DNA of 33,718 nt, taken from contig SYLG01000154.1 in assembly GCA_005808665.1 (NCBI GenBank), forward strand, positions 1 to 33,718. The letters are read 5' to 3'. The notes under the pieces were generated by a model. That model did not search any database. It worked only from the letters and a program-made list of their open reading frames with translations, and was not told the DNA's origin. Below are positions 458-29,203 of this stretch, piece after piece. Position 1 is the first letter of the stretch; every line of letters starts with the position of its first letter. This DNA comes from Planctomycetia bacterium. Lineage in GTDB: Bacteria; Planctomycetota; Planctomycetia; Gemmatales; Gemmataceae. The translations under genes and the position numbers were made by a program.

Positions 458-867
458 CTATTTCCCGAACCTTTCGGCAGCTAGAAACTCCCCATAATGG
501 AGGTAGCGATCCTAATCCGAATAATTCGCCCCTTGATGATTGGTATTGTCGGATTCGCGATACTCCAATCACCGAGTTTAACGACGAAGATTTGTGTCGT
601 GCGTGCCGTCAGGCAATTCATATGGATCATGTCGTCCCGATTGCTGCGGCACATCTGGAAGAAGAACCGCTAGCAGGAGACATGTACGATGGTGAATTAA
701 TAGTTGCAATGAGATCAATACCGGCCAATTATTGGATGAGCGACCTTCCGAATTTGGAGCGCATATTGTGGGTCGCTGGACGAGTTAAACAACTTTCCAA
801 CGACAAAGACATCCTTCACGATGTCGATGAACGCATTTGTAAATTTGAAAATATACGGCAGATCTAA
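454..867 (+). CDS. Immunity protein, CdiI_2-like (contact-dependent inhibition immunity family)
   Basis: This 137-residue protein most likely binds and neutralises the toxin encoded just upstream. Its core has the layout I associate with the CdiI_2 immunity family: a central FNDEDLCRACRQAI stretch (about residues 42-55), then HVVPIAAAHLEEEPLAG, then YDGELIVAMRSIP and YW near residue 90. These match the family pattern of an 'FxxEDLRxxIxQ' segment, a 'hLVPhAxxxLxxxPL' segment and a 'YxGDLL' segment. There is no signal peptide or membrane segment, as expected for a cytoplasmic immunity protein. The start is fixed by the ATGA overlap with the toxin gene. It is noticeably lower in GC than the large operon downstream, as mobile toxin-immunity cassettes often are. 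The family call rests on motif recall, not a search. Confidence 0.78.
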   Translation: MTISRTFRQLETPHNGGSDPNPNNSPLDDWYCRIRDTPITEFNDEDLCRACRQAIHMDHVVPIAAAHLEEEPLAGDMYDGELIVAMRSIPANYWMSDLPNLERILWVAGRVKQLSNDKDILHDVDERICKFENIRQI

Positions 868-1477: not shown

Positions 1478-3094
1478 ATGAACCCTGCGATTTCCAACCC
1501 CGAAACGGCGATGGACTTGGCGCTTTTGGCGTTGGGTAAGCCGGTCTTTGTCCAATGGGAGGCGGGGGCATCGGCCCGGAGTGTTTCAAAGCCTTTTCTT
1601 TTCCCCACCCCCGATCACGCCTTTGCCCCGGCTTATTTGCCTCAACAACTGGGCGATCCTCATTTCCGGGCCGACCATGGGGTCCAGCTAGCCCTTGTCA
1701 GCGGGGCCATGGCCAACGGTATTGCTTCTGTCGATTTGGTCCTTGCCATGGCCAGGTCGGGAATGTCAGGGTACTTCGGTGCGGCGGGTTGTTCCATGGA
1801 CCGGGTGGTCCAGGCCATCGACCGCTTTTCTCGTGAAATACCTGAACATCCCTGGGGAGTGAACCTGATTCACAGTCCGGCCGAAACGGACCGGGAAGAG
1901 GCCATGGTAGACCTTTTTCTCAAAAGGCGGGTCAGGCGGGTGGAGGCATCGGCATTTTTGGATCTGACTCCTGCCATCGTCCATTATCGTGCCTGCGGCC
2001 TATTGCGCAATTCAGAGGGAGCCATCATTGCCCACAACCGGGTGATGGCCAAGGTTTCCCGGGGCGAGGTGGCCACAAAGTTTTTCCACCCTGCCCCCAA
2101 GGCCATTCTGGATCGACTTGTTGCCCAAGGAAAGATAAGTGCCGAGCAGGCAAACCTGGCGACCCAGGTACCAATGGCGGATGACCTGACTGCCGAGGCG
2201 GACTCGGGAGGGCACACGGACAACCGCCCACTCGTAGGACTATTTCCCTCGCTTTTGTCTCTTCGCGATCGTGTCCAGGCCCATCTGGCCCCTCGGGAGC
2301 GGACCCGCATCGGAGCGGCTGGTGGGATTGCCACGCCCCATTCTGTTGCCGCGGCCTTTGCCATGGGCGCAGCGTATGTTGTCAGCGGCAGCATCAACCA
2401 GGCGTGTGTCGAGTCGGGCAGTTCAGACCTTGCCCGCCGCATGCTTTGTCAGGCGGATCCGGCAGATGTCATTATGGCCCCAGCTGCTGATATGTTTGAA
2501 ATGGGTATCAAGCTTCAGGTGCTTAAACGGGGAACCCTGTTCGCCCCCCGTGCGCAAAAACTGTACGATCTTTATCGCCACTATCCTGATCTGGAGTCGA
2601 TTCCCTCCGTCGAGCGCGAGGCGATCGAGGCCAAGATTTTTCGGGCACCGCTTACCCAAATCTGGGAAGAAACCTTGGCGTTTTTCACCAAAAGAGACCC
2701 GGCTCAGGTGGAAAGGGCCGAGCGCGACCCCAAGCACAAGATGGCACTTGTCTTTCGTTGGTATTTGGGACTAGCCTCCCGGTGGGCCAACGCCGGACTG
2801 GCCGAGCGACAAGCCGATTTCCAGATTTGGGCCGGCCCCGCCATGGGTGCATTCAATGCTTGGGTAAAAGGAAGCCACCTCGAGGCTCCCGAAAGCCGGC
2901 ATGTTGGGGAGATCAATCAACAGCTGATGGCGGGAGCTTGTGTGCTTGCCCGATGGCGGATGCTCACCATCCAGGGAGCCCCGCTTGATATGCCCCTGGT
3001 TTTGCCCTTTGATCCTGAAATTTTACGAGGTTGGATTCAAACCGCTGCCCCGGGAGGCCCATCGGCGGCCTTTGCGATTGGAAGAACCGTATGA
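1478..3094 (+). CDS. pfaD: PfaD-like enoyl reductase of the secondary lipid (PUFA-type) synthase
   Basis: A 538-residue FMN-dependent TIM-barrel protein related to 2-nitropropane dioxygenase, the trans-acting enoyl reductase of Pfa-type synthases. Motifs of the PfaD family are visible: DPHFRADHGVQ (residues 60-70), SGYFGAAG (97-104), GVNLIHSP, a VRRVEASAFLDLTPAIVHYR segment, and GGIATP (282-287), the likely phosphate-binding loop. AAYVVSGSINQACVE and MAPAADMFEMGIKLQVLKRG follow, as in known PfaD proteins. Length agrees with the family (about 500-540). I chose ATG 1478; an in-frame TTG at 1469 is possible and there is no other start before the stop at 1409. No good ribosome binding site is seen. 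Its TGA overlaps the ATG of the next gene (ATGA), so the synthase genes are translationally coupled. It should reduce the enoyl-ACP intermediates made by the two megasynthases downstream. Confidence 0.93.
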   Translation: MNPAISNPETAMDLALLALGKPVFVQWEAGASARSVSKPFLFPTPDHAFAPAYLPQQLGDPHFRADHGVQLALVSGAMANGIASVDLVLAMARSGMSGYFGAAGCSMDRVVQAIDRFSREIPEHPWGVNLIHSPAETDREEAMVDLFLKRRVRRVEASAFLDLTPAIVHYRACGLLRNSEGAIIAHNRVMAKVSRGEVATKFFHPAPKAILDRLVAQGKISAEQANLATQVPMADDLTAEADSGGHTDNRPLVGLFPSLLSLRDRVQAHLAPRERTRIGAAGGIATPHSVAAAFAMGAAYVVSGSINQACVESGSSDLARRMLCQADPADVIMAPAADMFEMGIKLQVLKRGTLFAPRAQKLYDLYRHYPDLESIPSVEREAIEAKIFRAPLTQIWEETLAFFTKRDPAQVERAERDPKHKMALVFRWYLGLASRWANAGLAERQADFQIWAGPAMGAFNAWVKGSHLEAPESRHVGEINQQLMAGACVLARWRMLTIQGAPLDMPLVLPFDPEILRGWIQTAAPGGPSAAFAIGRTV

Positions 3095-6000
3095 GCCCCA
3101 TTTCTCCAAGGAACCCCCAGATAACATTTGAACCGATCGCCATTATCGGTGCCGGTGCCCTGTTTCCTGGTAGCCTGGATCGGGAATCGTATTGGGCCTC
3201 CATCTGTCACGCCGAGGACCAGATCGGGCCGATTCCCGCCGGGCGTTGGGACCCAAAAGACCACTATGATCAGGACCCAACCACTCCGGATCGGGTGTAT
3301 GCGAACCGTGGTGGTTTCCTTGAGGAAGTGCCGTTAACGCCTGCAGAATTTGGCCTGAGTCCTACCGGCCTTCAGGCTACGGATACCTCGCAGCTATTAT
3401 CGCTTTGGGCGACAAGGCGATTGTTTCTGGAAGCGGGTTTTTCCCTGGGAGAGGGGATTTCCGGGCGAATTTTTGATCGGTCGAGGACCTCGGTGATCAT
3501 GGGTGTCACCGGTGCCCAACAACTCATGCTACCGCTTGGAACACGACTTGATGGGGGGCGTTGGACGCGGATCCTGTTGGACGAGGGGGTGGAGGCGACG
3601 GTTGCGTCCAGGGTAGTTTCCTCCATGCTTGATCTATATCCTCCGTGGCTGGAAAACTCCTTTCCCGGCCTTTTGGGGAATGTCGTTGCCGGACGAATCG
3701 CTCATCGTTTCAACCTGGGAGGCAGCAATTGTGTGGTGGATGCCGCCTGTGCCAGCTCCCTTGCGGCGATTCATATGGGTGTGATGGAACTTCAGGCGGG
3801 CAAGGCCGACATGATTGTCAGCGGTGGGGTCGACACCTTCAACGATCCCTTCATGTATGCCTGTTTCAGCAAGACACCCGCACTTTCGAAGTCCGGGTCT
3901 GCCAGGCCTTTTGACAAGGATGCCGACGGCACGATTCTGGGTGAAGGGGTTGGGCTTGTGTTGCTCAAACGCCTGGCCGACGCAAAGCGTGATGGAGATA
4001 CCGTCCTTGGTGTGATTCGGGGTCTGGGTGCTTCCAGCGATGGTTTGGGTAGTGCGGTTCACGCTCCCCGCAAAGAGGGACAGATTGCCTGTTTGCAAGC
4101 GGCGCACAAAAGTGGGGGAATTGACCCAACCACCATTGGCCTTGTGGAGGCTCATGGGACGGGAACCAAGGTAGGCGATGCTACGGAACTGGCCGGGTTG
4201 GTGGAGGTGTTTTCAGCAGCCCAAGGCAAGCCTCTGGCCCCTTGGTGTGCCCTTGGGTCGGTCAAGTCACAAATTGGCCACACCAAGGCGGCGGCGGGTG
4301 CGGCGGGGCTTATCAAGGCCCTGTTGGCAGTGCGGTTGGGGGTGATTCCGCCAACGGTCAAGGTCGGGGATCCTCAACCTTCCTTAAGGGATCCACTTTG
4401 TCCGTTTTATATTGCCGATCGACCGAGGCCTTGGCTCAATTTGCCTGACCCAAGTCGCCAGGGTGGAGTTTTGCCAAGGCGGGCGGGAGTTAGCGCCTTT
4501 GGATTTGGTGGCAGTAATTATCATGTCATTCTCGAACAGGCACCAGAACCAGAACAAGCCGCAGGAGTGCAAGGCCTCCTGAAGCAAACGGAAGGTCCCA
4601 TCGCCTGGGATCCGGATGTCTGGTTTGCTGCCGTTAGTGCCGGGAACGAGGCGGGTGTAACGGAAAAGTTGGCGGGGTTGCACAAGCGTCTCCTGGACAG
4701 ACATCCCAGCCACTTGGATCATGAGTGGGCCCAAATCGTTGCAAAAGAGTCCCGGAAAGCGTTTCGCTCCACCGATCCCTTGCGGGTAGTGTTGGTTGGA
4801 TCGGTACACAACCGCGGTCGGGCAAGAGTCCTTTCCCCTTTTGAGCTTTTGGCCAAGGCACTTGATAATGAACCGGATCCCGGAATTCATCGTGGTCGTG
4901 GGCCGATTCAAGGTGGAGTGGGTCTTCTTTTTCCAGGCCAGGGGTCCCAAGAACCCGATATGCTCCTTCGATTGTCGATTCGTTTTCCCGGCATGCGGAC
5001 CCTACTTGAGCGGGCCGAGTCACACTTTTCCCAGCAATTTCCAGGCAACGAACCGCTTTCAAGGGTGGTGTATCCGATCCGGGGTTTTGTCGAAAACGAA
5101 GCCGAGCTTTGGCGGGACAGGATCCGGGACACCCGCTATGCCCAGATGGCCCTTGCCGGCTTGTCGCTTGGAGCGTTCAAGGTGTTGGAACGGTTTGGGG
5201 TCAAACCCCAGGCGGCGGCAGGACACAGCCTTGGCGAGTGGACGGCATTGGCCGCCGCCGGGCGAATTACTCCGGACACCATGCTGGTTTTGGTTGCCAA
5301 ACGGGCCGCACTCATGAATCATTCCGGGGCTGACCGGACTGGTGTCACCCGCGAAAAGGGTGCCATGCTAGCGGTGTTGGCTCCCGAAGAACAGGCTCGT
5401 CAGGTTTTGAATACGATTCAATCCCCCCTCATTCTTGCCAATCGCAATTCACCCACGCAGGTGGTTTTTGCCGGGTCGAGAGCCATGGTAGACCGTGCCC
5501 ATGTGTTGCTTAGCCAGCAAGGCATTCGAAGCGTAATTCTGGATGTGGCGGATGCGTTTCATACCCCGGCCATGTTTCCCGCGGTGGAACCCATGCAAAA
5601 GGCATTGGCTCAGGAGCCCTTTGGCCCGGGGGCATTTCCCGTGTTTGCCAATGTCACCGCCCGGGAATATCCCACCGATCCGCCAAGTGCCCGATCCCTG
5701 TTGGCCGGGCAACTTTCCCAACCGGTTCAGTGGTCCGATACCCTTTTGCAAATGGCCTCGCAGGGTATTGACACCTTTATCGAATGCGGTCCCGGGCGCA
5801 AACTATCCGGCCTTGTCACGGCTACCCTTGGCCAGGCGGGTCAGGCCTTGGCCCTGGATCCTGTCCCTGGTATTGGCTTGGCTCCCTTGGCCAATATCCT
5901 TGCCCATCTTGCCTCGCGGGGGCACCCGGTCCACCTGGATGCGTGGGATGCTGGGGAATGGGAACAAAGGGTGGCCACCAAGTCGGCATTTGTTGTTCCG

Positions 6001-9000
6001 GTTGGGGGTGGCCTTGTTCGTCCGAAAGCTAATGGGTCGAAATCGGTCAACACCAAAGCGGCAAAACCCGTGCCGACGATTACGGCTCCGGGGGCCGCAC
6101 CCCGGCAAATGTCCATTGAAGCAATTCCTTTAACCGCTTCAGGGTCCGAAGTTGGCAGGAGCCAAGCCAACGCCCCCAAAACCACCATCACGGATCCCTC
6201 ATTGGGAAATTCCCGTGATGCCAAACCCCTTCCCGCAAGAAAGGTATTCTCAACGGTTCCACCTATGGATTCCCTACACCTTCCCGTTTCAAACAGCATG
6301 GTAAACCAGGGGGCACTGGCCTTTGGACGCGAAACCCTTGCTGCGCTGCAACAACTTCAGGAACAAACGGCCAAACTGCACAAGCAATTCCTGGAGGGAC
6401 AAGAACTGGCCCAACGCACCCTTCAGGCACTCATCGAATCCCGGTTCCGCCCTGGATCCTTGGCAATGGCTTCCCCAGCAATTGTCCAGCCACCTTTGGT
6501 GGAACCTGTCGAAACGCCAGCTCCCGCCCTGGTTCCTGCCTTGCTTCCTGGTTTGGTGGTTCCAGAACCTGTGAATCCCGTGCCGGTGGTGACGGTTACG
6601 GCCCCCATAGTGGCAAAAGTGGCAGCCCCTGCTCCTTTGACTCCTGTCCCTTCGATGCCCGTGGTCGTTCCGGGCAACTCGTCGGCTCTTCGGGTTTTAA
6701 CCCAAATTGTCGCCGAGAAAACAGGGTATCCCGAGGACACACTTGAGCCGGACATGGCCCTTGATACGGACCTTGGAATCGACTCGATCAAACGGGTGGA
6801 AATCCTCTCGGCGGTGCAGGAGGCCATGCCGGGAGCCCCGGCCATCGGGGCCGAGCATATGAGTACTCTCAGGACCCTAAGGCAATTGGCGGACCATTTG
6901 TCTGGAGGGGAAAAGGCAGCCCTTGCAGCCATGGTGGTAACGGCTCCCAAAATCGAACCGGTCAAGGCAGAGACGATCAAAGCCCCCGCTTCCGTAGCGG
7001 TCCTTGCCAACAATTCCCATGCTTTGGCTGTCCTCACAAAAATTGTCGCTGAGAAAACAGGGTATCCCGAGGACACCCTGGAACCAGATATGGCCCTTGA
7101 TACCGACCTTGGGATCGACTCGATCAAGCGGGTGGAAATCCTCTCGGCGGTGCAGGAGGTCATGCCCGGGGCCCCAGCCATTGGTGCCGAGCATATGAGT
7201 ACCCTCAGGACGCTAAGTCAACTTGCGGACCACCTTTCAGGAGGGCCCCCCGCTTTTTTTCCCGATCGGTCACCTCGGGAGCTAGCCTCGAATAGGCCTG
7301 CTCCAGAGGTGACCGGGGCCAAGGCCAAAACAGTTCCCTTGGTGCTTGAGCCTTCTGTTCTTTCCCGTTTTTGCCTCCTCCCAAGGGATGTCCCGGTTGA
7401 TCCGCCCCCCTCGTGGATCGTCCCGGGAACGCGGATTGTGGTTTTGGCCGAAGACGCCGCAACCGGGGCCCCTGTTCTCGAGGGCCTTAGAAATCTTGGT
7501 GCCCGTGCCGACCTTGCCCTTCTTGGGGACCCCGCCTCGTTGCCGGAACGACTTGAAGCCTTGGTGATTGTAGCTGGTTTTTCGGTTAACCCGCTTGCCC
7601 CAAGGCATCTGGAACATCGGGTCCTGGTGTGGGTGCAAGCCGCCCTTGGTCCCCTTTCGGAATCAGCCGACCGGGGCCCGGTCCAGGTTTGCCTTATTGC
7701 CGCCGTACCCTCAGGAAACACCTTGCCTACACACAATTCCCTGATCGCCTGTGGTTTGGCCGGTTTGGTAAAGTCGATCCGTTGGGAGGCCCAAGGTGTC
7801 TGTTCTCAGGTGATCCGACTGGAAGGCAAGGTAGATGCCTCGGTAGCCTCCTGGATCGGTCGTCCGGGCCTGGAGGAGCTGCTGATCCAACATGGGCAAA
7901 CCAGGATCCTTTACCTTGCCGAGGGGAACATCTCGTCCCCCCAAAAACCACCTGTGGAGCCCGGGGACCTCGTTTTGGTAACAGGGGGAGCTCGCGGGGT
8001 GACGGCGGCTTGCGCTTTGGAGTTGGCCCGGACCCTTCAACCCAACCTGGTGCTTTGCGGACGGACGCCTTTACCCAAAGCGGAGCCTCATTGGCTCCAA
8101 GGGGCTTGTGACGAGGCCCAGGTGCGTAAGGCAATCGCCACCCACAGCCCAACCAAATTGTCTCCAAAGCAAATCCTCGAATCGGCCAAGGGTTACCTTG
8201 CGGCCCGTGAGGTTCGTGAAAACCTCGAAGCCTTGCGTTCGGCGGGGACCAAAGTGGAATATGTTTCATTGGATGTGGCCGATCCGGAAAGGGTGCGCCA
8301 GACCCTTGCGGACCTTGTTCGCCGCCACGGTCCTTTGCGAGGCATAGTTCATGGGGCAGGGGTACTTGCGGATGCCAGGCTTCTGGACAAGACGCCTTTG
8401 CAAATGGATACGGTAATTGGGGCCAAATTGGACGGTCTCCTCAATATCCTTTCCGAAACGGAGTTTGCCAAACTTGGTTTTTTAAGCCTATTCGGATCGT
8501 CTACGGGGCGATTTGGCCGTCTTGGCCAGGCGGATTATGCGGTTGCCAACGAGGCGATTGCCGCTTGCGCCCGCTGGGTCGCTTCAAGTCACCCGTCCTG
8601 TGCGGTAAGGATAATCGATTGGGGCCCTTGGGAGGGCGGCATGGTTAAGGGAGGCCTCAAAGCACTTTTTGCCTCCGAAGGGGTGGGACTTATTCCCCTG
8701 GCCGAGGGTGCAAAGTTTCTTGTCAACGAAATCTGTGCCGGACCAGAACCTATGGCGGAGGTTGTTGCTTTGGCTCCCAACTCCCGCTTGCCGGAACTCC
8801 CATCGAACACAATTTTCCCCCCTGTTGGGATCAACAATGCCAATCCCCAATCGGTAAAGGTTCCATCGTTACCCGATACCTTGGAAAAATCGTTTCATCA
8901 GAGAATTGATCTGGTTTCCCATCCGGTCCTGGGTGACCATGTCCTCAATGGGCATCCCGTGGTTCCTTTGGCCTTGTTGGCCGAATGGCTAGGCCATGCC

Positions 9001-9762
9001 GCTTGCCACGCCAACCCTGGTTATCAGGTAATGGGATTTGATAATCTCCGTGTCCTCCATGGTGTCAAACTCGACACCTCCAAACCGATTGACCTTTCCG
9101 TGTTTGCGGGACGAATCGATTTTTCCCAGGCTCTCCTGACCTCAGTTCAATCAGAGATTCGTGGGGTTCGTGGCACTCAACAGTCGGCACCTCTTGTCCG
9201 CACGGACATTCTCCTTGGGGCGATTGGGAACCATCGGCCGAACCCTAACGCCCAAGGCTTACCCCATGGAATCAAAGGCAATTATCCCTATCCCAAGTCG
9301 CAATGGTACGAAAGCCTCCTTTTCCATGGGTCCGCATGGCAAGGTATCACCGACATCGAGGCCTATGCTCCGGAAGGATCCCCGGAGCCCGGGATCGTTT
9401 GTCGCATCCAGGCGGCACCTGCCCCGGCGGCGTGGATACGCTTGCCTCATCGTTCCCGCTGGATCTTCGACCCTCTCGTGCTTGATTGTGCCTTCCAGTT
9501 GATGATTCTCTACTGCCAGGCCCAGCTTGGGATGCCCTGCCTCCCTTCGCTGGTGACAAGCTTTCGCCAGTTCCAGGGTTTTCCTGGCGAGGGATGTCGG
9601 GCGGTCCTTCGCATCCGTAAATGCACCAAAGGCCAGGTGATGGGTGATGTGGATTTCCTGACACTTGCGGGCATTCCCATCGGCCGTATGGAAGGCGTTG
9701 AATCGGTTGCGGACCCTGCCCTTGCGGGAGCTTTTGTTCGCAACCAAACCGCCCATTCCTAG
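3091..9762 (+). CDS. pfaA: PfaA-like multidomain lipid synthase, KS-AT-ACP-ACP-KR-DH
   Basis: A 2223-residue iterative synthase subunit. Domains: ketosynthase (about 14-485) with the Cys220/His355/His397 triad in DAACASS, EAHGTGT and IGHTKAA; acyltransferase (about 608-910) with GHSLGEW (Ser713) and AFHTP (His824); a proline-rich linker; a helical segment (about 1070-1118); two acyl carrier domains with LGIDSIKR (Ser1232 and Ser1344, the phosphopantetheine sites); ketoreductase (about 1620-1860) with TGGARGV (1631-1637), Ser1803, Tyr1816 and Asn1820; and a C-terminal dehydratase (about 1930-2215) with His1950 in HxxxGxxxxP and Asp2132 in DCAFQ. All catalytic residues look intact. This is the PfaA order, but with two carrier domains where I recall marine enzymes having five or more. 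The start at 3091 is fixed by the ATGA overlap with pfaD and precedes the ketosynthase directly; an upstream in-frame TTG (3031) would lie inside pfaD. Confidence 0.95.
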   Translation: MSPISPRNPQITFEPIAIIGAGALFPGSLDRESYWASICHAEDQIGPIPAGRWDPKDHYDQDPTTPDRVYANRGGFLEEVPLTPAEFGLSPTGLQATDTSQLLSLWATRRLFLEAGFSLGEGISGRIFDRSRTSVIMGVTGAQQLMLPLGTRLDGGRWTRILLDEGVEATVASRVVSSMLDLYPPWLENSFPGLLGNVVAGRIAHRFNLGGSNCVVDAACASSLAAIHMGVMELQAGKADMIVSGGVDTFNDPFMYACFSKTPALSKSGSARPFDKDADGTILGEGVGLVLLKRLADAKRDGDTVLGVIRGLGASSDGLGSAVHAPRKEGQIACLQAAHKSGGIDPTTIGLVEAHGTGTKVGDATELAGLVEVFSAAQGKPLAPWCALGSVKSQIGHTKAAAGAAGLIKALLAVRLGVIPPTVKVGDPQPSLRDPLCPFYIADRPRPWLNLPDPSRQGGVLPRRAGVSAFGFGGSNYHVILEQAPEPEQAAGVQGLLKQTEGPIAWDPDVWFAAVSAGNEAGVTEKLAGLHKRLLDRHPSHLDHEWAQIVAKESRKAFRSTDPLRVVLVGSVHNRGRARVLSPFELLAKALDNEPDPGIHRGRGPIQGGVGLLFPGQGSQEPDMLLRLSIRFPGMRTLLERAESHFSQQFPGNEPLSRVVYPIRGFVENEAELWRDRIRDTRYAQMALAGLSLGAFKVLERFGVKPQAAAGHSLGEWTALAAAGRITPDTMLVLVAKRAALMNHSGADRTGVTREKGAMLAVLAPEEQARQVLNTIQSPLILANRNSPTQVVFAGSRAMVDRAHVLLSQQGIRSVILDVADAFHTPAMFPAVEPMQKALAQEPFGPGAFPVFANVTAREYPTDPPSARSLLAGQLSQPVQWSDTLLQMASQGIDTFIECGPGRKLSGLVTATLGQAGQALALDPVPGIGLAPLANILAHLASRGHPVHLDAWDAGEWEQRVATKSAFVVPVGGGLVRPKANGSKSVNTKAAKPVPTITAPGAAPRQMSIEAIPLTASGSEVGRSQANAPKTTITDPSLGNSRDAKPLPARKVFSTVPPMDSLHLPVSNSMVNQGALAFGRETLAALQQLQEQTAKLHKQFLEGQELAQRTLQALIESRFRPGSLAMASPAIVQPPLVEPVETPAPALVPALLPGLVVPEPVNPVPVVTVTAPIVAKVAAPAPLTPVPSMPVVVPGNSSALRVLTQIVAEKTGYPEDTLEPDMALDTDLGIDSIKRVEILSAVQEAMPGAPAIGAEHMSTLRTLRQLADHLSGGEKAALAAMVVTAPKIEPVKAETIKAPASVAVLANNSHALAVLTKIVAEKTGYPEDTLEPDMALDTDLGIDSIKRVEILSAVQEVMPGAPAIGAEHMSTLRTLSQLADHLSGGPPAFFPDRSPRELASNRPAPEVTGAKAKTVPLVLEPSVLSRFCLLPRDVPVDPPPSWIVPGTRIVVLAEDAATGAPVLEGLRNLGARADLALLGDPASLPERLEALVIVAGFSVNPLAPRHLEHRVLVWVQAALGPLSESADRGPVQVCLIAAVPSGNTLPTHNSLIACGLAGLVKSIRWEAQGVCSQVIRLEGKVDASVASWIGRPGLEELLIQHGQTRILYLAEGNISSPQKPPVEPGDLVLVTGGARGVTAACALELARTLQPNLVLCGRTPLPKAEPHWLQGACDEAQVRKAIATHSPTKLSPKQILESAKGYLAAREVRENLEALRSAGTKVEYVSLDVADPERVRQTLADLVRRHGPLRGIVHGAGVLADARLLDKTPLQMDTVIGAKLDGLLNILSETEFAKLGFLSLFGSSTGRFGRLGQADYAVANEAIAACARWVASSHPSCAVRIIDWGPWEGGMVKGGLKALFASEGVGLIPLAEGAKFLVNEICAGPEPMAEVVALAPNSRLPELPSNTIFPPVGINNANPQSVKVPSLPDTLEKSFHQRIDLVSHPVLGDHVLNGHPVVPLALLAEWLGHAACHANPGYQVMGFDNLRVLHGVKLDTSKPIDLSVFAGRIDFSQALLTSVQSEIRGVRGTQQSAPLVRTDILLGAIGNHRPNPNAQGLPHGIKGNYPYPKSQWYESLLFHGSAWQGITDIEAYAPEGSPEPGIVCRIQAAPAPAAWIRLPHRSRWIFDPLVLDCAFQLMILYCQAQLGMPCLPSLVTSFRQFQGFPGEGCRAVLRIRKCTKGQVMGDVDFLTLAGIPIGRMEGVESVADPALAGAFVRNQTAHS
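6700..6909 (+). repeat. First copy of the duplicated acyl-carrier-protein module
   Basis: This encodes the first carrier domain (phosphopantetheine Ser1232). It recurs 336 bases (112 codons) downstream at 7036-7245 with only scattered, mostly silent differences. Over the ~70-residue core I count two amino-acid changes (EAMPG to EVMPG, TLRQL to TLSQL). Confidence 0.9.
7036..7245 (+). repeat. Second copy of the duplicated acyl-carrier-protein module
   Basis: This encodes the second carrier domain (phosphopantetheine Ser1344). The in-frame offset of 336 bases includes an alanine/proline/lysine-rich linker that is not conserved between the copies, so only the folded domain is kept similar. Confidence 0.9.
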
Positions 9763-9780
9763 CCGGAGGCCATTCGTCCG

Positions 9781-12700
9781 ATGCCAGGAAGAGCTGCCCC
9801 ATACCGGGATTGCCCGATAGCCATTGTGGGCCTTGGCGGGATTTTCCCCGAAGGCTTGGATCCTGCCGGGTTGTGGCGGGCGGTCCTCGAACAACGGTGG
9901 TTGGGAAGCGAACCCACCCCGGGCAGATGGGTCCTTCCTCCGGATGCCATCTGCGACTCTTCGGCAATCCTTCCCGACCGGGTTCGAAGCAAAAACCTTT
10001 GTGCCGTACCCGGCTCTTTTTTTTCACTCGAGCTTGATCCACCCGAATCGCTTGCCCTCCATGCCGCCAGGGCGGCCTTGGCATCAACACGGCTTGAAAA
10101 GGTCGACAGGAACCGGATCGGAGTGATCCTTGGGAACATCTTTTTGCCAACCAGACAATTGGCAAAGCGGGCCGAGGCTGTTTTTGCAGGGTCAAATCCA
10201 CCCCTGGCAAGGCCATGTGACGGGCTGGGTCCGGCCAATGTATCGCTTTCGGTAGTCCGGGAATTCGGATTGGGGGGGGGCCACCAGACTATCGATGCGG
10301 CATGTGCATCATCCTTATATGCGATCCACTTTGGGGCCATAGAGCTGATGCTTGGCCGCCTCGATGCTGTCCTGGTGGGGGGCGTGTCCGCTCCCGACAG
10401 CCTTTATACACAGATGGGGTTCAGTCAGCTTCGGGCCTTGAGCCCAAGCGGCCGGTGCCGACCCTTCAACCACCAGGCGGATGGCCTAATCGTTGGTCAG
10501 GGGGCGGGAATGGTGGTCCTGAAAAGGCTGGCGGACGCCATAGCCCATGGGGACAACATTTTGGCACTGATCGCCGGCGCAGGCCTTGCCAACGACATCG
10601 ACGGCGGTTTGCTTGCCCCCTCTTCCGAGGGCCAACTACGGGCTATGCGGGCAGCATATGATGCGGGGGCAATGGTCCCGGGAGATGTGGATTGGTTTGA
10701 GTGCCACGCCACCGGAGCCCCGGTGGGTGATCAGGTGGAGGTGAAAAGCCTTACCGATTTACTTCGTTCCAACAGACGGTTTACCCATGCTAACCTCCAT
10801 CATGACCACCGCATCCCGGTGGGTTCTGTAAAGTCCAACATCGGTCACCTCCTTACCGCCGCGGGTGGGGCTGCCTTGACCAAGGCATTGATGGCCCTTT
10901 CCGCGGAGCGTATTCCGGGAATGGCCGGATCGGACGAACCATTAGGAGAATTGTCCCATCCCGATTGTCCGGTTATCCTCTCTCCTGAAGACAAACATTG
11001 GACCCAAAGATCCGATCGGCCCCGAAGGGTCGCCTTGAGTGCCTTTGGGTTTGGAGGAATCAATGCCCATATCATTCTCGAAGGGTTTCAACCGGTAAAA
11101 GAATCCGTGGTCAATCCCAGGGCCCTGTCCCCTTTGGTCCCCCCGGTGGCCATTACGGCCGTTTCGATGGTACCCGCAGAGGATGATTTCACGGGTGAAA
11201 TCCGGGTGGCCGCCGGTGGCTTTCGGATTCCACCTGTTGAGATGTTGTCGATGTTGCCCCAGCAACTACGGGTTTTGGCAGCAGCCAAATCCCTGGTGGT
11301 TGATGTTTCTGGCTCAAAAACCGCCCTGGTCCTGCAGGCAACGACCGACCCGGCAACCACCAATTATCACCTTCGTTGGTTGGGTCTTTCAGGCGGCCTA
11401 TCCCAGGAGGATCCCTTGCTTGTGCCCCCCCTTGATGCCAATCGGGTCATGGGGGCCTTGGCAAGTATTGCCGCGAGCCGTATTGCCAGGCAACTTCGGC
11501 TTGGCGGCCCCTGTTTTACTTTTGCTTCCGGGCCAGGTGGAGGGGTTGCCCAAGCCCTGCGGACTGCAGAAGGATTGCTCTTTTCAGGTGAGGCAGAGCA
11601 AGTCATTGTTGGGGCTGTGGGTTCGCCCCCCGATCCAAGAACACATGGTGGCCCCCAATCAGAAACCCCCTTAAAGGCTGATCCTGATGCCGATGCCACA
11701 GTCTTGCTCCTCCTGGAGAAAGTATCCGGGACCCATTCCCGGGGGCGCCCCATCCTTGCCCACTTGCTGGGAACCGGGCTTGATTCCCTTCCCACAAGCC
11801 ACCGCATTGGTCCGGGAGTCGATGATGCGATGGAGGAAGCTCTTGAGGAAGCTTTTTCCGGCGAAGGGGCTCATCCCGGTGGTGTAACCCTTTTTACCAG
11901 CCACCATGATCCTGCCCAAAAGCCATCAACTGCCGGGCTCGAAGATTTTTTTGGTCCCCGTTGTCCCCATTCACCACGATGGTGGCGGGGTGCCTACACC
12001 ACCCCGGCCCCTGCCATCACCCGCCCATGGGTATCCCTTGCCCAAACAACCCGGGCCCTTGCCTCCCGCAGGATTCCCGCTTCCCCCATTGGGGAGGGAA
12101 TGCCTGATATCCCGGGTATTCTTCCCTGTCCGTTGGATATACCTTGGGTGGCAAATGCCGCCGACCAACCCCGAAGTGCCCTGGTTGTGGCAACCGGAGC
12201 GGATGGCAACACCTCTGCTGTTCTCCTTGGGGGTCCCCAGGCCCCGCTTTTTGCTGCCCCTGTTTCCCAGGCCGATTGGCCCGAAGCACTGATTTTGATC
12301 GAAGGGAATTCCCCTGCCGAAATAGAGAGCCTATTGGGTCGGCTGGAGGTCCTGAACAAACGGAATCCGGGTACCACACCACGCCGCCTTGCCCACCTTT
12401 GGGCAAGCTCTGTCCCTCCCTGCCCCATGGCCCGGTTGGGTATGGCCCTTGTTTTTCGACAAGGGAGATCCTTTTCAGAGCTTTTGAATCAGGCAAGGCA
12501 GGTCCTGGTTCAATCCGCCCCAGAGGTATCACCCACCACCCAGGGCCTTAATTTTCCGGAGGTTCTCTTCCGGCGAAATCCCCTGGGTAACCAGGCCCCT
12601 GTGTGCCTTGTCTATCCAGGTTCCGGGCAGGCCACCTTTGATATGGGAAGAACGCTAGCCCTGGCCTTTCCAGACATTCTTGAAGCACGGGAAGCGTCCA

Positions 12701-15700
12701 CCAAACAGGGAGCATCCGCATTTGTCCCGGGAAAATTCTGGACAGGAAATGCTGCGGATGCAGCCTCTGCCAACCCTCGACAACAAATTATGGGCCAGAT
12801 CAACCATGGTTGTCTGGTCACAGGCATTCTTGCCACTCTTGGAGTCTCCCCGGCGTTTGCCCTTGGCCAAAGCCTGGGTGAATCGACAATGATGTTCGCT
12901 TTGGGGGCATGGCCCCAAAAGGACAGGATGCTGCGTGAATTGATGCGTTCCAGTCTCTTTCAGACCGAGGTTGTGGAACCGTGGAATGCGGTGCGCCAAT
13001 ATTGGAATCGGCCGAAAGGAACAAAAGTGGATTGGGTTCAAGCCCTTTTTCCGGTTTCGTTCAAGCACCTTTCCGTGGCTCTGGTGGGCTTGGAACGCAC
13101 CTATCCTTTGATCGAATTGGCGCCCGCTTTGGTCCTTGTTGGAGGGGAGGGCGGGGCACTTTCCGAATTGGCCAAGCGGCTTGCCATTGAACCCATCCGG
13201 ATCCCGGGAGGGACTTCTGTCCATGGACCCATGGCGGGTTCCATCGCAAACGCCTGGCGAAGCCTCCATCATGGCCCCGTGAGTCTACCGCCAGGCCTAA
13301 GGCTCTTCCTTGCGGGCTGTCCCGCCGCCATTCCACCCGTAAGCGACATCGTTGCCGAAGCCTTTGTCGAGGCTGCCCTATCCCCGATTTCGATGGTGGA
13401 CCTTGTGAGGCGGGCTCATGCGGCGGGTGCCCGGTTTTTCCTTGAGGTGGGACCAGGGGCTTCCTGCACTCCCCTTGTTCGTTCCATATTGGGCCCTCTC
13501 CCCCACGCCGCGGTTGCCCTTTCGCCGCGGCAAGGAGATGAACGAGCGGGGTTGCTTTTGGCCATTGGAACCCTGATTGCCGAACGCATTCCTCTCGATC
13601 GCGAAGGACTTGGCAGACTCCTTTGCTGCGAGGAACAGGTGGCCACTAACCGTTTGGCGAACGATTTGATCATTCCCCGTGAAATACCCAGGTGCTTGCC
13701 CCACTTTGCCATAACAGAAACCCCCACCAACCCGGAGCCGGTTGTTCATTTGTCCAATCCTCCAGCCATGGAAGTCATGCAAGATCCCAATCATCCTCTG
13801 TCCCGTGCCATTCACCAGGCCGGCCTTTTACATGATGCACAATCTGCCTATTTGCGTTTTGCCCATGCCGGGACGGCCTTGGTGGAACGAATCCATTCCG
13901 GGGCGATTGCGTATTCCGAAACAGGAACCCAAATCCCGCCAGAGAGCATGCCTTTTTTCGGCCTTCCCATGGAGGAGGTACTCCCCGCGGTTCGCCGGAG
14001 TTTGACTCGCAACCATTGTATGCACCTTGCCATTGGCAGTGTCGCCCAGGCTTTGGGAAGCCGCTTCGCCCCCGCGGATGCTTTTCCCACCAGGGTACGC
14101 CTTCCCGATCAGCCATTGATGCTGGTGGATAGGGTCCTTTTGATCGAAGGGGAACCTCTTTCGATGCTGTCCGGTCGTGTTATCACTCAGCATGATGTAT
14201 TGCCTGGTGGTTGGTATCTTGATAACGATCGTATGCCCATTTCGCTTACAGTCGAGGCGGGTCAGGCCGATATGTTGTTGGCTGGATGGCTGGGAATTGA
14301 TTTCCAAACACGCGGCCTTTCTGTCTATAGGCTGCTGGACGCAACCATTACCTTTGAGAACTATCTGCCCCGCCCGGGGGAGGTAATGACCTATGACATT
14401 CGGGTTCTGCGGTTTTTCCGCCATGGGGACTCCTGGTTGTTTCGTTTCGAATTCGATGGATCGTGCCAAGGCAACCCTGTCCTCAGGATGCGTGAGGGTT
14501 GTGCCGGGTTCTTTACCCATGCCACACTTGCCCAGGGACAGGGGTTATTGCCCCAGGATTTTCCCCCACGAAAACCACCCGAGGCGGGTAGGGTGTTTGA
14601 AACCCTTGACAATCTGCAAATGGAAGCACTTCGCCGGGGTGACCTTGTTGCCGCTTTTGGTCCGGACTTTGCCGGTCACCCGGTGCAATACCCTGCCACC
14701 TTGCCCTCGGGAAGGATGGCGCTGATTCACCGGGCGACGGAAATAGACCTCTGTGGCGGGGCCATGGGTTTGGGTCGTATCGTCACCGAATGCGACATAT
14801 TTCCGGACGATTGGTTCCTCACCTGTCATTTCATCGACGATCAGGTCATGCCCGGCACGCTGATGTATGAAGCCTGTTTGCAATCGCTCCGGGTGTTGCT
14901 CATGCGCAAGGGTTGGATCGCCCCCGCCGGATCGGTGACGATCGAGGGGCGGCCTGGTTTGGCAAGTGCCCTCAAATGCCGGGGCCAGGTCACCCCATCC
15001 ACCCGCAAAACAGCCTACGAATTGGAAATCGTTGAAATCCATGAAGGCAGCAATCCATCGGTTGTTGCCCACGCTGTCATGTTTGCTGATGGTAAACCTG
15101 TGGTTTCCGTCCGGTCGATGAGCCTGCTCCTTGGGGGTACGGATTCCACTTCCTTTCACCCCATCGCTGGTACCAAGGTCCCCACCCTAGTTCCCGACAA
15201 CCCGGTCCTTGTGATGGACCACAATAGACTCCTGGAATTTTGCACAGGATCCCCCTCCAAAGCGTTTGGTTCAAGGTTTCTTCCCTTTGACAATGATCGC
15301 ATTATGGCCCGCCTACCCCGTCCACCGTACCTGTTCATGGATGAGGTGGTGTGGGCCGAAGGGGAGCCCCAAACCCAGAGTGCCCCTAAAAAATGCCTGA
15401 CCCGTTTTCGAGTCGATCCGAAGGCCTGGTGGGTCGGGGCTTCGGGCCACGGCCGTATTCCCTTTGCCGTACTTCTGGAGATTGCCCTGCAACCTTGTGG
15501 GTGGATTTCCGCCTGGTCGGGGGCAGCCCTAACTCTTGAGGAAGACCTTGCCTATCGAAACCTGGGTGGGACCGCTACGCTGCTTGGTGACCCCATTGCT
15601 GGACCAGGACTCATCGAGGTCCATGCCACCCTCGTCCGCATCTCCCGCTCGGGCGGTATGATCCTTCATTTTTTCACCTTTGATGTCCACTTCAATGGAA

Positions 15701-16251
15701 AATCCATTTATCAGGGAACCACATACTTTGGATTTTTCACCAAAAAGGCCCTGGCCAATCAGGTAGGCATTACCGACGGAAAGCCTTGGACCTCACCTAT
15801 GCCAACCCAGGTGTGTCCAGGGGTGGACGATTCCAGATTGCCCTCACCTCCGCTTTTGATGCTTGACGCCATTGAAAATTTCGACCAAGGCGGTGGTCCC
15901 AAGGGACTTGGTTTTGCCAGGGCGACCAAATCCGTCAATCCGGCCGAGTGGTTCTTTGAAGCGCACTTTTATCAGGATGCGGTCATGCCAGGATCCCTGG
16001 GATTGGAAGCGTTTGTGCAACTTGCAGGATTACTTGCAGATCCCACCGGGAAGAAAAAAGCCCTCATACTTCAAGGTTCTCCGGCCCATTCCTGGATCTA
16101 CCGGGGACAGGTCATTCCCAAACATCACACCATCACTACCAAGGTAGAGGTCACCGCCCGTCATGACGATCGTATCATCGCCGACGGCTGGGTCGAAGTG
16201 GATGGACGCATCATCTATCAGATGAAAGATTTTACATTTGGGCTTTTGTAG
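9781..16251 (+). CDS. PfaC/Pfa3-like lipid synthase, KS-CLF-AT with four hotdog dehydratase modules
   Basis: A 2156-residue partner of the KS-AT-ACP protein. Domains: ketosynthase (about 10-430) with Cys175, His309 (CHATGAPVGD) and His356 (SNIGHLLTAAG); a chain-length-factor-like domain (about 455-820), where alignment by eye puts Pro585 (ASGPGGG) at the usual cysteine position; an acyltransferase-like domain (about 940-1290) with GQSLGES (Ser1031), His1148 and EVGPG; and a C-terminal region (about 1430-2156) of four FabA-type hotdog modules. Modules two and four keep the catalytic pair (His1683/Glu1697 and His2062/Glu2076, each 14 apart, in HFxxDxVMPG contexts). Modules one and three lack the histidine (Trp1478; ASGHG near 1887-1891), as in double-hotdog folds with one live half. 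ATG 9781 lies 18 bases after the previous stop with CCGGAGG about 11 bases upstream. It fuses an acyltransferase into PfaC and has no acylglycerol-phosphate acyltransferase tail. Confident on family, open on product. Confidence 0.93.
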   Translation: MPGRAAPYRDCPIAIVGLGGIFPEGLDPAGLWRAVLEQRWLGSEPTPGRWVLPPDAICDSSAILPDRVRSKNLCAVPGSFFSLELDPPESLALHAARAALASTRLEKVDRNRIGVILGNIFLPTRQLAKRAEAVFAGSNPPLARPCDGLGPANVSLSVVREFGLGGGHQTIDAACASSLYAIHFGAIELMLGRLDAVLVGGVSAPDSLYTQMGFSQLRALSPSGRCRPFNHQADGLIVGQGAGMVVLKRLADAIAHGDNILALIAGAGLANDIDGGLLAPSSEGQLRAMRAAYDAGAMVPGDVDWFECHATGAPVGDQVEVKSLTDLLRSNRRFTHANLHHDHRIPVGSVKSNIGHLLTAAGGAALTKALMALSAERIPGMAGSDEPLGELSHPDCPVILSPEDKHWTQRSDRPRRVALSAFGFGGINAHIILEGFQPVKESVVNPRALSPLVPPVAITAVSMVPAEDDFTGEIRVAAGGFRIPPVEMLSMLPQQLRVLAAAKSLVVDVSGSKTALVLQATTDPATTNYHLRWLGLSGGLSQEDPLLVPPLDANRVMGALASIAASRIARQLRLGGPCFTFASGPGGGVAQALRTAEGLLFSGEAEQVIVGAVGSPPDPRTHGGPQSETPLKADPDADATVLLLLEKVSGTHSRGRPILAHLLGTGLDSLPTSHRIGPGVDDAMEEALEEAFSGEGAHPGGVTLFTSHHDPAQKPSTAGLEDFFGPRCPHSPRWWRGAYTTPAPAITRPWVSLAQTTRALASRRIPASPIGEGMPDIPGILPCPLDIPWVANAADQPRSALVVATGADGNTSAVLLGGPQAPLFAAPVSQADWPEALILIEGNSPAEIESLLGRLEVLNKRNPGTTPRRLAHLWASSVPPCPMARLGMALVFRQGRSFSELLNQARQVLVQSAPEVSPTTQGLNFPEVLFRRNPLGNQAPVCLVYPGSGQATFDMGRTLALAFPDILEAREASTKQGASAFVPGKFWTGNAADAASANPRQQIMGQINHGCLVTGILATLGVSPAFALGQSLGESTMMFALGAWPQKDRMLRELMRSSLFQTEVVEPWNAVRQYWNRPKGTKVDWVQALFPVSFKHLSVALVGLERTYPLIELAPALVLVGGEGGALSELAKRLAIEPIRIPGGTSVHGPMAGSIANAWRSLHHGPVSLPPGLRLFLAGCPAAIPPVSDIVAEAFVEAALSPISMVDLVRRAHAAGARFFLEVGPGASCTPLVRSILGPLPHAAVALSPRQGDERAGLLLAIGTLIAERIPLDREGLGRLLCCEEQVATNRLANDLIIPREIPRCLPHFAITETPTNPEPVVHLSNPPAMEVMQDPNHPLSRAIHQAGLLHDAQSAYLRFAHAGTALVERIHSGAIAYSETGTQIPPESMPFFGLPMEEVLPAVRRSLTRNHCMHLAIGSVAQALGSRFAPADAFPTRVRLPDQPLMLVDRVLLIEGEPLSMLSGRVITQHDVLPGGWYLDNDRMPISLTVEAGQADMLLAGWLGIDFQTRGLSVYRLLDATITFENYLPRPGEVMTYDIRVLRFFRHGDSWLFRFEFDGSCQGNPVLRMREGCAGFFTHATLAQGQGLLPQDFPPRKPPEAGRVFETLDNLQMEALRRGDLVAAFGPDFAGHPVQYPATLPSGRMALIHRATEIDLCGGAMGLGRIVTECDIFPDDWFLTCHFIDDQVMPGTLMYEACLQSLRVLLMRKGWIAPAGSVTIEGRPGLASALKCRGQVTPSTRKTAYELEIVEIHEGSNPSVVAHAVMFADGKPVVSVRSMSLLLGGTDSTSFHPIAGTKVPTLVPDNPVLVMDHNRLLEFCTGSPSKAFGSRFLPFDNDRIMARLPRPPYLFMDEVVWAEGEPQTQSAPKKCLTRFRVDPKAWWVGASGHGRIPFAVLLEIALQPCGWISAWSGAALTLEEDLAYRNLGGTATLLGDPIAGPGLIEVHATLVRISRSGGMILHFFTFDVHFNGKSIYQGTTYFGFFTKKALANQVGITDGKPWTSPMPTQVCPGVDDSRLPSPPLLMLDAIENFDQGGGPKGLGFARATKSVNPAEWFFEAHFYQDAVMPGSLGLEAFVQLAGLLADPTGKKKALILQGSPAHSWIYRGQVIPKHHTITTKVEVTARHDDRIIADGWVEVDGRIIYQMKDFTFGLL

Positions 16252-16276
16252 AACGGGATAAAGTCAGGGAGGACCG

Positions 16277-17197
16277 ATGAAAAAAGTTGTCGGCCGCCTG
16301 CTACGCCTTATCGGGTTAAACCCTCTATTGGAAAAATGCCACAACGAGTCGTGGCGGTGGCAAACAGGAAGCCTCTGGGTGCCCCCCGGACACTATTATT
16401 CCCCCCTTTTTCATCGCAAAAATCTTGCTGAAGAGGCGGCCCAACTCGCAAAAGAGGTTCCAAGACACCTTCCCCATATTTCCCTGGACGAAAACCGGTT
16501 ACTGGCCAACCTGTGTTCCATGGATCTTGCCGGAAGGCCCGTCGGGTTTCCCCGCCAACCCGATCCTTTATGGCGTTACCATGCGGAAAATGGTTCCTAC
16601 CCGGATAACGATGCTGCCTGTCTTGCGGGGATGGCCCGCATTTTCCGACCCAAACGGATCCTCGAAGTGGGATGCGGGTTTTCTTCCGCCCTTGCCTTTG
16701 ACCTTAACGATTTCGAGTGGAACCACTCCATTGACCTTTGCTTTGTCGATCCGGATCCCGGTCGGATGTTATCATTATTGAGAGAAGGAGATAAAAAGGA
16801 TCTGAAACTGCACCGTAAAAGGCTCCAGGATACGGACCCAAATCTCTTTCAAACGCTCGAGGCGGGAGATTTCCTCATCATCGATTCCACCCATGTTGCC
16901 AAGACAGGATCCGATGTGAATTACCTTTTCTTCGAGATCTTTCCCCGGCTTGCTCCGGGGGTTTTGGTTCACATCCATGACATCTTTTGGCCCTTTGAAT
17001 ATCCCGTTTCCTGGCTGGAGGAAGGGCGGTCCTGGAACGAGACCTATTTCCTGCGGGCCTTCCTCATGCACAACAAGGAATGGTCGATTGAAATGTGTAA
17101 CACCTGGCTCATGCGCTTCTACCCGGAAGCCCTCAAGGAGTCGATGCCCGGGATCAGCCTGGAAGGGGCGAGCCTTTGGCTTTGCAAAACCCAATAG
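16277..17197 (+). CDS. Class I SAM-dependent methyltransferase-like protein, last gene of the synthase operon
   Basis: A 306-residue protein with a Rossmann methyltransferase core. SAM motif I is ILEVGCGFS (residues 128-136), followed by an acidic strand end CFVDPDP (155-161), the DFLIIDSTHV strand (198-207) and HIHDIF (232-237). The layout resembles the Methyltransf_24 group, which acts on sugars and small molecules; the substrate cannot be read from sequence. About 110 residues precede the core, and there is no signal peptide or membrane segment. ATG 16277 has a strong ribosome binding site (GGGAGGA, 16267-16273) and lies 25 bases after the synthase stop on the same strand, so it is probably co-transcribed. 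This suggests, but does not prove, that it methylates the lipid product or a head group. Confidence 0.8.
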   Translation: MKKVVGRLLRLIGLNPLLEKCHNESWRWQTGSLWVPPGHYYSPLFHRKNLAEEAAQLAKEVPRHLPHISLDENRLLANLCSMDLAGRPVGFPRQPDPLWRYHAENGSYPDNDAACLAGMARIFRPKRILEVGCGFSSALAFDLNDFEWNHSIDLCFVDPDPGRMLSLLREGDKKDLKLHRKRLQDTDPNLFQTLEAGDFLIIDSTHVAKTGSDVNYLFFEIFPRLAPGVLVHIHDIFWPFEYPVSWLEEGRSWNETYFLRAFLMHNKEWSIEMCNTWLMRFYPEALKESMPGISLEGASLWLCKTQ

Positions 17198-17301: not shown

Positions 17302-17384
17302 GCCGGAGTGGCGGAATGGCAGACGCGCCAGCTTGAGGGGCTGGTTTCTGTATAGAAGTGCAGGTTCAAGTCCTGTCTCCGGCA
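17302..17384 (+). tRNA. tRNA-Leu, anticodon GAG
   Basis: The acceptor stem GCCGGAG (17302-17308) pairs with CTCCGGC (17377-17383). The anticodon arm CCAGC/GCTGG (17328-17332 and 17340-17344) encloses the loop TTGAGGG, with anticodon GAG at 17335-17337. The long variable arm (class II) and the T-loop TTCAAGT (17365-17371, stem closed with one G-U pair) fit tRNA-Leu. It reads CUC and CUU. The 3' CCA is not encoded; the genomic bases after the discriminator A are CTT. Confidence 0.96.
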
Positions 17385-17399
17385 CTTGAAAACCCATGG

Positions 17400-17425
17400 C
17401 GCGGACCCAAGTTGGTCCGCGTTTT
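17400..17425 (+). terminator. Rho-independent terminator after tRNA-Leu
   Basis: An 8-bp perfect stem CGCGGACC / GGTCCGCG (17400-17407 and 17414-17421) with a six-base loop is followed by TTTT. It sits 15 bases after the tRNA and before the ATG at 17443, so it ends the tRNA transcript. It also argues against the TTG at 17386 as the start of the next gene. Confidence 0.8.
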
Positions 17426-17442
17426 GCGTTTGGGGAAATCCT

Positions 17443-18429
17443 ATGGCTTCCTACTCTTCAACCGGCAAGCGAATCCTTCCCCTGCCGGAAACCCTGATTC
17501 GGCCCAAACGCTCCATCCATGCCATTGTTGCCGCCCTTTTGCCTTGGACCCCCTCGGGAATCCAATGGGATTCTTATCTAACCCGTCTCGAAAATATCGT
17601 GGGTTTGGGAATGGTCCCCGCCATCAACATGGACACCGGCCATGCAAACCTTTTAACAAAGGAACAGCGAACCGAAATCCTTGCCAGGGTTAGCAACCAC
17701 CTCAGGGGCGTTTCCTTTGTTGCGGGTGCCTACCTCGGTGATGCTCCCGGCCAACCATTTGACCCGGGTGCTTATGGCCGGGAGATGGAGGAGATTCAAA
17801 ACCATGGTGGCCTGCCCATTCTGTTTCCAAGCCACGGCATGGGATCACTTTTGGGTGAGAACCTCATTTGGGCCCATGAAACCTTGGCCCAATATGCGGA
17901 TGCGTTTTACGGATTTGAGCTATCCTCCGCATTCGTTCCGTTTGGCCGAATCTTTACACTCTCCGAATTCGGGGGACTCCTTGCCATCAAGGCCTTAAAA
18001 GGCATCAAACATTCCTCCCTTTCCCGCATTCCTGAATGGGAAAGGCTGGTTCTTTGCAATGAAATGCGTCCCGATTTCAAACTGTTCACAGGCAATGACC
18101 TTGCCATAGACATGGTCATCTACGGCAGTGACTATCTCCTCGGTTTGGCTGCGTTTGCGCCCGATTTGTTCGCCCTTAGGGATCGGTGGTGGCTGGTGGG
18201 GGATCCCCGTTTTTATGAATTGAACGATGCCCTCCAGGCCTTGGGAGCCTTCGCTTTTCGCGATCCCATCCCCGCCTACAAACACTCGGCCATCCAGTTT
18301 TGGCGTGTTAGGGGCTGGCTTCATGATGATCGCCCGGCACCCGGAGCCCTGGCTCGGCCCGAATCCGACCTGTTGATCCTGGCCAGGTTTTGGGATCGCC
18401 TTGCCCCCTTCACCGGGTTTTGTTCATGA
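17443..18429 (+). CDS. DapA-like (dihydrodipicolinate synthase family) TIM-barrel protein
   Basis: A 328-residue protein resembling the class I lyase superfamily of dihydrodipicolinate synthase and N-acetylneuraminate lyase. The N-terminal WDSYLTRLENIVGLGMVPAI segment matches the first barrel strand, GVSFVAGAYLGDAPG (around residues 84-98) sits where the GxxGE loop falls, and GIKHSSL (Lys189) fits the Schiff-base lysine. The usual active-site tyrosine of the YYxxP motif is not evident; the equivalent stretch reads LSSAFVPFGRIF. Substrate is therefore unknown, and lysine biosynthesis is unlikely. I chose ATG 17443: the upstream in-frame TTG (17386) would place the tRNA terminator inside the gene. 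Its TGA overlaps the ATG of the flavoprotein gene, so the two are coupled. Confidence 0.72.
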   Translation: MASYSSTGKRILPLPETLIRPKRSIHAIVAALLPWTPSGIQWDSYLTRLENIVGLGMVPAINMDTGHANLLTKEQRTEILARVSNHLRGVSFVAGAYLGDAPGQPFDPGAYGREMEEIQNHGGLPILFPSHGMGSLLGENLIWAHETLAQYADAFYGFELSSAFVPFGRIFTLSEFGGLLAIKALKGIKHSSLSRIPEWERLVLCNEMRPDFKLFTGNDLAIDMVIYGSDYLLGLAAFAPDLFALRDRWWLVGDPRFYELNDALQALGAFAFRDPIPAYKHSAIQFWRVRGWLHDDRPAPGALARPESDLLILARFWDRLAPFTGFCS

Positions 18430-21545: not shown

Positions 21546-21566
21546 GGTGGCAATGGTTCCTGTGAA

Positions 21567-23065: not shown

Positions 23066-23072
23066 GAGAGGT

Positions 23073-29160: not shown

Positions 29161-29203
29161 CAATCCAGGCGTCCCTTTGAAATCGGATTGGAAGGAAATG
29201 GAT

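Follow-up and report, generated by a model that had tools for sequence, protein, structure and literature searches.

Fusions of pfaB and pfaC into one gene, pfaBC [KS-CLF-AT-DH2], were catalogued in several types of Pfa synthases by Shulse and Allen in 2011 (PMC3098273). Type I of their classification includes Geobacter, Pelobacter, Desulfuromonas and the planctomycete Gemmata obscuriglobus, and it was suggested that the planctomycete Type I synthases may feed olefin synthesis (PMC3098273). In Geobacter bemidjiensis, the pfa and ole genes are located in tandem and 31:9 is made (PMC4882568, PMC3098273). In Shewanella, OleA condenses in vivo a 16:4 intermediate from the PfaA ACPs, and OleBCD finish the 31:9 hydrocarbon (PMC6463001).

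Here, we describe a Pfa locus of a Planctomycetia bacterium. The window, i.e., the whole stretch of DNA analysed, is one complete contig of 33,718 bases from a genome of 4.48 Mb. It was compared with relatives in a set of 59 genomes that includes the window's own; 31 of the 59 contain a pfaD gene scoring over the model cut-off.

Genes and domains of the locus

Three coupled genes located between positions 1478 and 16251 (Table 1) make up, judged by sequence, a complete iterative Pfa-type synthase. An earlier note on this DNA had described a PfaD-like reductase tightly coupled to a KS-AT-ACP2-KR-DH protein and a KS-CLF-AT-DH4 protein; open reading frames were found at these positions, and the curated models TIGR02814 and TIGR02813 match above their cut-offs. 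Pfam retrieved KS, AT, two ACPs, KR and PS-DH, followed, in PfaBC, by KS and two FabA stretches. The tail of PfaBC consists of four FabA-like hotdog folds, with the last FabA domain ending 8 residues from the end of the protein. The AT region of PfaBC (residues 936-1273) matched the PfaB model TIGR02816 at 43.6 bits, below the cut-off of the model. PDB searches with PfaBC and with its DH region returned mostly PKS KS and FabA chains, which leave the type of the protein undecided. The G+C content of the pfa operon (positions 2001-16000) is 0.56-0.59 versus 0.51-0.55 around it.

Table 1. Features of the window and their positions.
Feature	Position	Strand	Assignment and evidence	Start and spacing
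Toxin-like protein, followed by immunity protein	2-864		C-terminal piece of polymorphic toxin-like protein with pretoxin HINT domain; then CdiI_3-type immunity protein	
pfaD	1478-3094	+	FMN enoyl reductase, PfaD family; TIGR02814 634.5 bits (cut-off 449); PDB PfaD 4yx6, E 3e-167	ATG 1478, stop 3094; longer TTG frame starts at 1469
pfaA	3091-9762	+	KS-MAT-ACP-ACP-KR-DH (PKS type); TIGR02813 1115.6 bits (cut-off 1010); Pfam domains; active sites conserved	ATG 3091, 4-base overlap with pfaD stop; longer TTG frame starts at 3031; stop 9762
pfaBC fusion	9781-16251	+	KS-CLF-AT and two FabA-type double-hotdog dehydratases; Pfam ketoacyl-synt and two FabA stretches	18 bases downstream of pfaA
Methyltransferase (Methyltransf_24)	16277-17197	+	Pfam PF13578	25 bases past pfaBC
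tRNA-Leu(GAG)	17302-17385	+	ARAGORN	Downstream bound of the gene group
ORF	17386-18429		No Pfam or NCBIfam match	
FMN oxidoreductase	18390-19880		Old-yellow-enzyme type	After the 17386-18429 ORF
Radical SAM cluster	20244-24410	-	NirJ/heme-type radical SAM, 4Fe-4S protein, GcvH-like lipoyl protein, HutW/HemN-like radical SAM	
FabH	26572		Ordinary FabH	
Multiheme protein	29150-30826		Cytochrome c554 type	
Multicopper-oxidase-like fragment	33046-33585			

Catalytic residues and KS phylogeny

Catalytic residues were checked by alignment with 14-16 relatives (PfaA residues are numbered along the longer TTG frame). In PfaA, the residues of KS (C240/H375/H417), MAT (S733/H844), KR (S1823/Y1836) and the PKS-type DH (H1970/D2152) are all present. 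Serines S1252 and S1364 of the ACPs are present as well, so there are two carrier serines; together with the two ACPs detected by Pfam, this bears out the earlier count of only two carrier domains. In PfaBC, the residues of KS (C175/H309/H356), AT (S1031/H1148) and the FabA-type DH (H1683 and H2062) are also present, and the CLF, as is usual for this domain, has no Cys. Thus, every catalytic residue checked is conserved with the relatives, and the synthase appears catalytically intact, as the earlier note had proposed. Residue 2069 of PfaBC (window positions 15985-15987), located in the last hotdog, is Met (VMPG), while Trp is found in 10 of 13 relatives; this may be a change of the pocket.

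An ordinary type I polyketide synthase would share its domain types with the locus, and the type I PKS model NF045894 gives 595 bits, far under its cut-off of 1740. The TIGR02813 and TIGR02814 scores, in contrast, are above the cut-offs. In a quick KS tree, ordinary PKS, PfaC-type KS and PfaA-type KS form separate groups, and the two KS domains of the window fall into their respective Pfa groups; the KS_C rows have long branches, and branching inside KS_C was not used. A second, careful tree, built from PfaA-type KS, separates PfaA KS from PKS with a support of 100/100. The KS trees thus place both KS domains with Pfa KS and outside the PKS clade. At the sampling used, the KS trees, together with the curated models, refute the ordinary PKS reading and leave it virtually no probability. 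The same models and trees bear out the Pfa-type synthase proposed in the earlier note, a kind of enzyme that makes long-chain lipids.

Within the tree of PfaA-type KS, the clade that holds the window (95/94) also contains sequences from planctomycetes, Verrucomicrobia and Geomonas, while Azospirillum, Myxococcaceae/Archangiaceae and a clade rich in Acidobacteria fall elsewhere; in this sampling, the Geobacter strains of the 2011 paper are represented by Geomonas, and Azospirillum is a sequence proxy for Aetherobacter/Minicystis. The genus of the window is located on a long KS branch of 1.1 changes per site.

Comparison with described Pfa systems

The layout of the operon is ordinary for its group and, judged by sequence, matches Type I of the 2011 classification. 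Most pfaD-containing genomes with sufficiently long contigs show the PfaD-PfaA-PfaBC order, and the PfaD-first order with a fused KS-CLF-AT-DH protein is also present in Geomonas, Elusimicrobia, Verrucomicrobia and Myxococcota. The "unusual domain split" of the earlier note, i.e., pfaD in first position and AT fused into the PfaC-like protein, is therefore the norm in the planctomycete relatives, occurs in other phyla and belongs to the fusions already catalogued (PMC3098273). Neither are the four DH folds an oddity, since the standard PfaC tail has four hotdogs, two pseudo-DH and two DH (PMC4882568). In one relative (G034, L136 4212-5587), pfaD is split between two frames by a frameshift or a sequencing error.

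Type I synthases (PMC3098273) share with the window the pfaBC fusion KS-CLF-AT-DH, the PfaA layout and a planctomycete host; the KS of the window is in a supported clade with that of Geomonas, and ole genes are present in the genome. The differences are that the window has two ACPs, whereas Geomonas has five, that the ole operon is located on another contig, and that the PPTase is unlinked, while Geomonas has one after oleD. One to three ACPs are found in most planctomycetes seen, and one distant relative has five, as Geomonas does.

The marine PfaA-E systems (Shewanella, Moritella and Photobacterium) have the same domains and the four-hotdog DH tail (PMC4882568), but differ from the window in gene order, in the fusion of AT in the window and in the number of ACPs, which is 4-6 in the marine systems versus two here (PMC3098273). 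The resemblance to myxobacterial Pfa1-3 that the earlier note had proposed appears, in this sampling, to hold for architecture only: in Aetherobacter and Minicystis, too, the reductase comes first, Pfa3 is KS-CLF-AT-DH-DH', and the PPTase is located at a separate locus (PMC6731297, PMC8436480), but the KS of the window clusters neither with Myxococcaceae/Archangiaceae nor with the Azospirillum proxy, and PfaBC has no AGPAT. Pfam detected no acyltransferase domain after the last FabA domain of PfaBC; since AGPAT has been described as found only in the Pfa3 of myxobacteria (PMC8436480), its lack is expected in other groups.

The earlier note had seen no PPTase, which is true of the window; the genome search, however, revealed a single Sfp/HetI-like PPTase on another contig (G000:C103, L137 961-1884). 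PUFA-type PPTases carry the motifs P0 hRxhLS, P1a x(G/D)xP and P1b (F/S)NxSH (PMC3098273). By inspection, AGKP and FNVSH of the PPTase fit P1a and P1b, and LRGLLA fits P0 at 5/6. As the search retrieved no second PPTase, the same enzyme would be needed for fatty acid synthesis as well as for the Pfa synthase. In myxobacteria, too, an unlinked PPTase gene has been reported (PMC8436480).

oleABCD genes and the probable product

Where the contigs of relatives are long enough, the gene directly 3' of pfaBC codes for OleA (NF006720 467.7 bits, cut-off 285) and is followed by oleB, oleC and oleD; the best PDB match of the encoded protein is 3row, the OleA of Xanthomonas. The pfaBC-oleABCD order was also found in Geomonas oryzae and paludis, in a Myxococcus MAG, in an Elusimicrobiales MAG and on a verrucomicrobial contig. 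In 16 relatives, oleA is on the pfaD contig at a distance of 13-17 kb, which matches the position expected for a gene following pfaBC. In three relatives (G035, contig C20; G032, C111; G009, C14), pfaBC adjoins ole though pfaD-pfaA is located on a different contig, a hint that the tie to ole lies with pfaBC. An oleA gene over the cut-off is present in 29 of 31 genomes with pfaD versus 11 of 28 without it (Fisher p = 1e-5, n=59, kinship ignored); within the family, the counts are 23 of 24 versus 4 of 13 (p = 5e-5, kinship likewise ignored).

The window's own genome has a complete, compact oleABCD operon with overlapping genes on another contig (G000:C41, L147 9910-14600). Its OleA scores 476 bits with NF006720, over the cut-off; the best named matches of OleC and OleD are olefin beta-lactone synthetase and 2-alkyl-3-oxoalkanoate reductase, both below the model cut-offs. 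The FabH encoded in the window itself was considered as an OleA candidate and ruled out. Both same-genus genomes have oleABCD on contigs of their own.

The OleA of the window's genome nests in the group of pfa-linked OleAs (99/97, 18 rows), apart from the OleAs of six pfa-less genomes; its nearest outside relative (G029) is likewise unlinked, and there is weak support (88/64) for the branch that joins the OleAs of the family to the linked ones from other phyla. The ole and pfa genes have thus probably become separated secondarily in the window's lineage, and this separation within the genus is the sole local novelty.

In the reading that we favour, with a probability of about 0.65, the synthase would supply OleABCD with a polyunsaturated acyl-ACP, and head-to-head condensation by these enzymes would give a long polyene, e.g., 31:9. 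The transfer of the Shewanella/Geobacter route to the window is based on homology, on the gene order of relatives and on the descent of OleA. The PPTase encoded on the other contig would activate the PfaA ACPs; in each cycle, malonyl condensation would be followed either by full reduction or by a stop after dehydration/isomerisation, so that cis double bonds are kept, and such cycles would yield the polyunsaturated acyl-ACP. OleA would then take two chains off the ACPs and join them head to head, after which OleD, OleC and OleB would reduce, lactonise and decarboxylate the product, giving a long hydrocarbon with many double bonds, of the hentriacontanonaene (31:9) type. Part of the acyl product may also go into membrane lipids. 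The Shewanella Pfa and OleABCD system has the same enzyme activities, and there OleA links both in vivo, giving 31:9 (PMC6463001); in Shewanella, however, PfaB is separate, the gene order is different and PfaC has no AT, while the coupling proposed here is a prediction. Chain length and the number of double bonds are not readable from the sequence.

Several observations speak against coupling to ole. In the window's genome, ole is not adjacent to pfa; one same-genus genome (G002, 79% complete) has oleABCD, and no pfa was found in it; two other genomes (G007 and G055) have pfaD but no oleA. OleA is also present in related pfa-less families (f4 and f6), and therefore ole does not need Pfa. In a second reading, which we hold to be rather unlikely, the product would be a membrane PUFA (C20-C24, of the Shewanella/Aetherobacter type) released by the AT of PfaBC, and OleABCD would be fed mainly by type II fatty acid synthesis. 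The AT of PfaBC is intact, PfaB is described as the terminal acyltransferase, which determines the PUFA that is made (PMC12895367), the occurrence of OleA in pfa-less families makes other feeding routes possible, and the ole operon of the window's genome is unlinked. However, the adjacency of pfaBC and ole is kept across phyla, and the genome's own OleA groups with the pfa-linked OleAs rather than with those of pfa-less families. A membrane PUFA and an ole-derived hydrocarbon are not mutually exclusive.

Methyltransferase and flanking genes

A methyltransferase gene directly follows pfaBC, as the earlier note had stated; it may be co-transcribed with the pfa operon, but it lies outside the conserved system. 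A methyltransferase of this kind is present in 4 of the 58 other genomes, never beside pfaD, and is absent from both same-genus assemblies (90% and 79% complete); this distribution over the 58 genomes rules it out as a component of the system.

The co-directional gene would nevertheless suit a synthase that makes another long-chain lipid (saturated, hydroxylated or methylated), e.g., one tailored by the methyltransferase, by analogy with the synthases for heterocyst glycolipids or phenolic lipids. Related synthases do yield hydroxylated or phenolic lipids (PMC3098273), and specificity may have shifted along the long KS branch of the genus. Against this stand the absence of the methyltransferase from the two same-genus genomes and most relatives, its location away from pfa elsewhere, and the intact residues of the FabA-type dehydratase/isomerase, domains that heterocyst synthases lack (PMC3098273). 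We consider such a product improbable. A genus-specific uncoupling from hydrocarbon synthesis, in which ole has moved, the KS branch has become very long and the methyltransferase has been gained, and which would yield another very long-chain lipid that is undescribed in planctomycetes and possibly methylated, appears very improbable. In the literature on Gemmataceae hydroxy fatty acids or trimethylornithine lipids, nothing was found that links them to Pfa.

Other genes of the window are listed in Table 1; the cluster at 20244-24410 is a possible cofactor or lipoyl-linked pathway. The genome contains 53 DUF1559 stretches, while none were found in 14 control genomes; this family marks the host as a member of Planctomycetota.

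Discussion

In the catalogue of 2011, the Type I Pfa synthases are entered with an uncharacterised product (PMC3098273). An ole-coupled product, as favoured here, is support for the existing idea of 2011 and not a new one. The conserved pfaD-pfaA-pfaBC-oleABCD order, together with the persistence of the pfaBC-ole link, makes the 2011 proposal of a polyunsaturated hydrocarbon precursor directly testable in cultured planctomycetes. Should the proposal hold, polyunsaturated hydrocarbons would have a source in a family of bacteria that are common in fresh water and soil.
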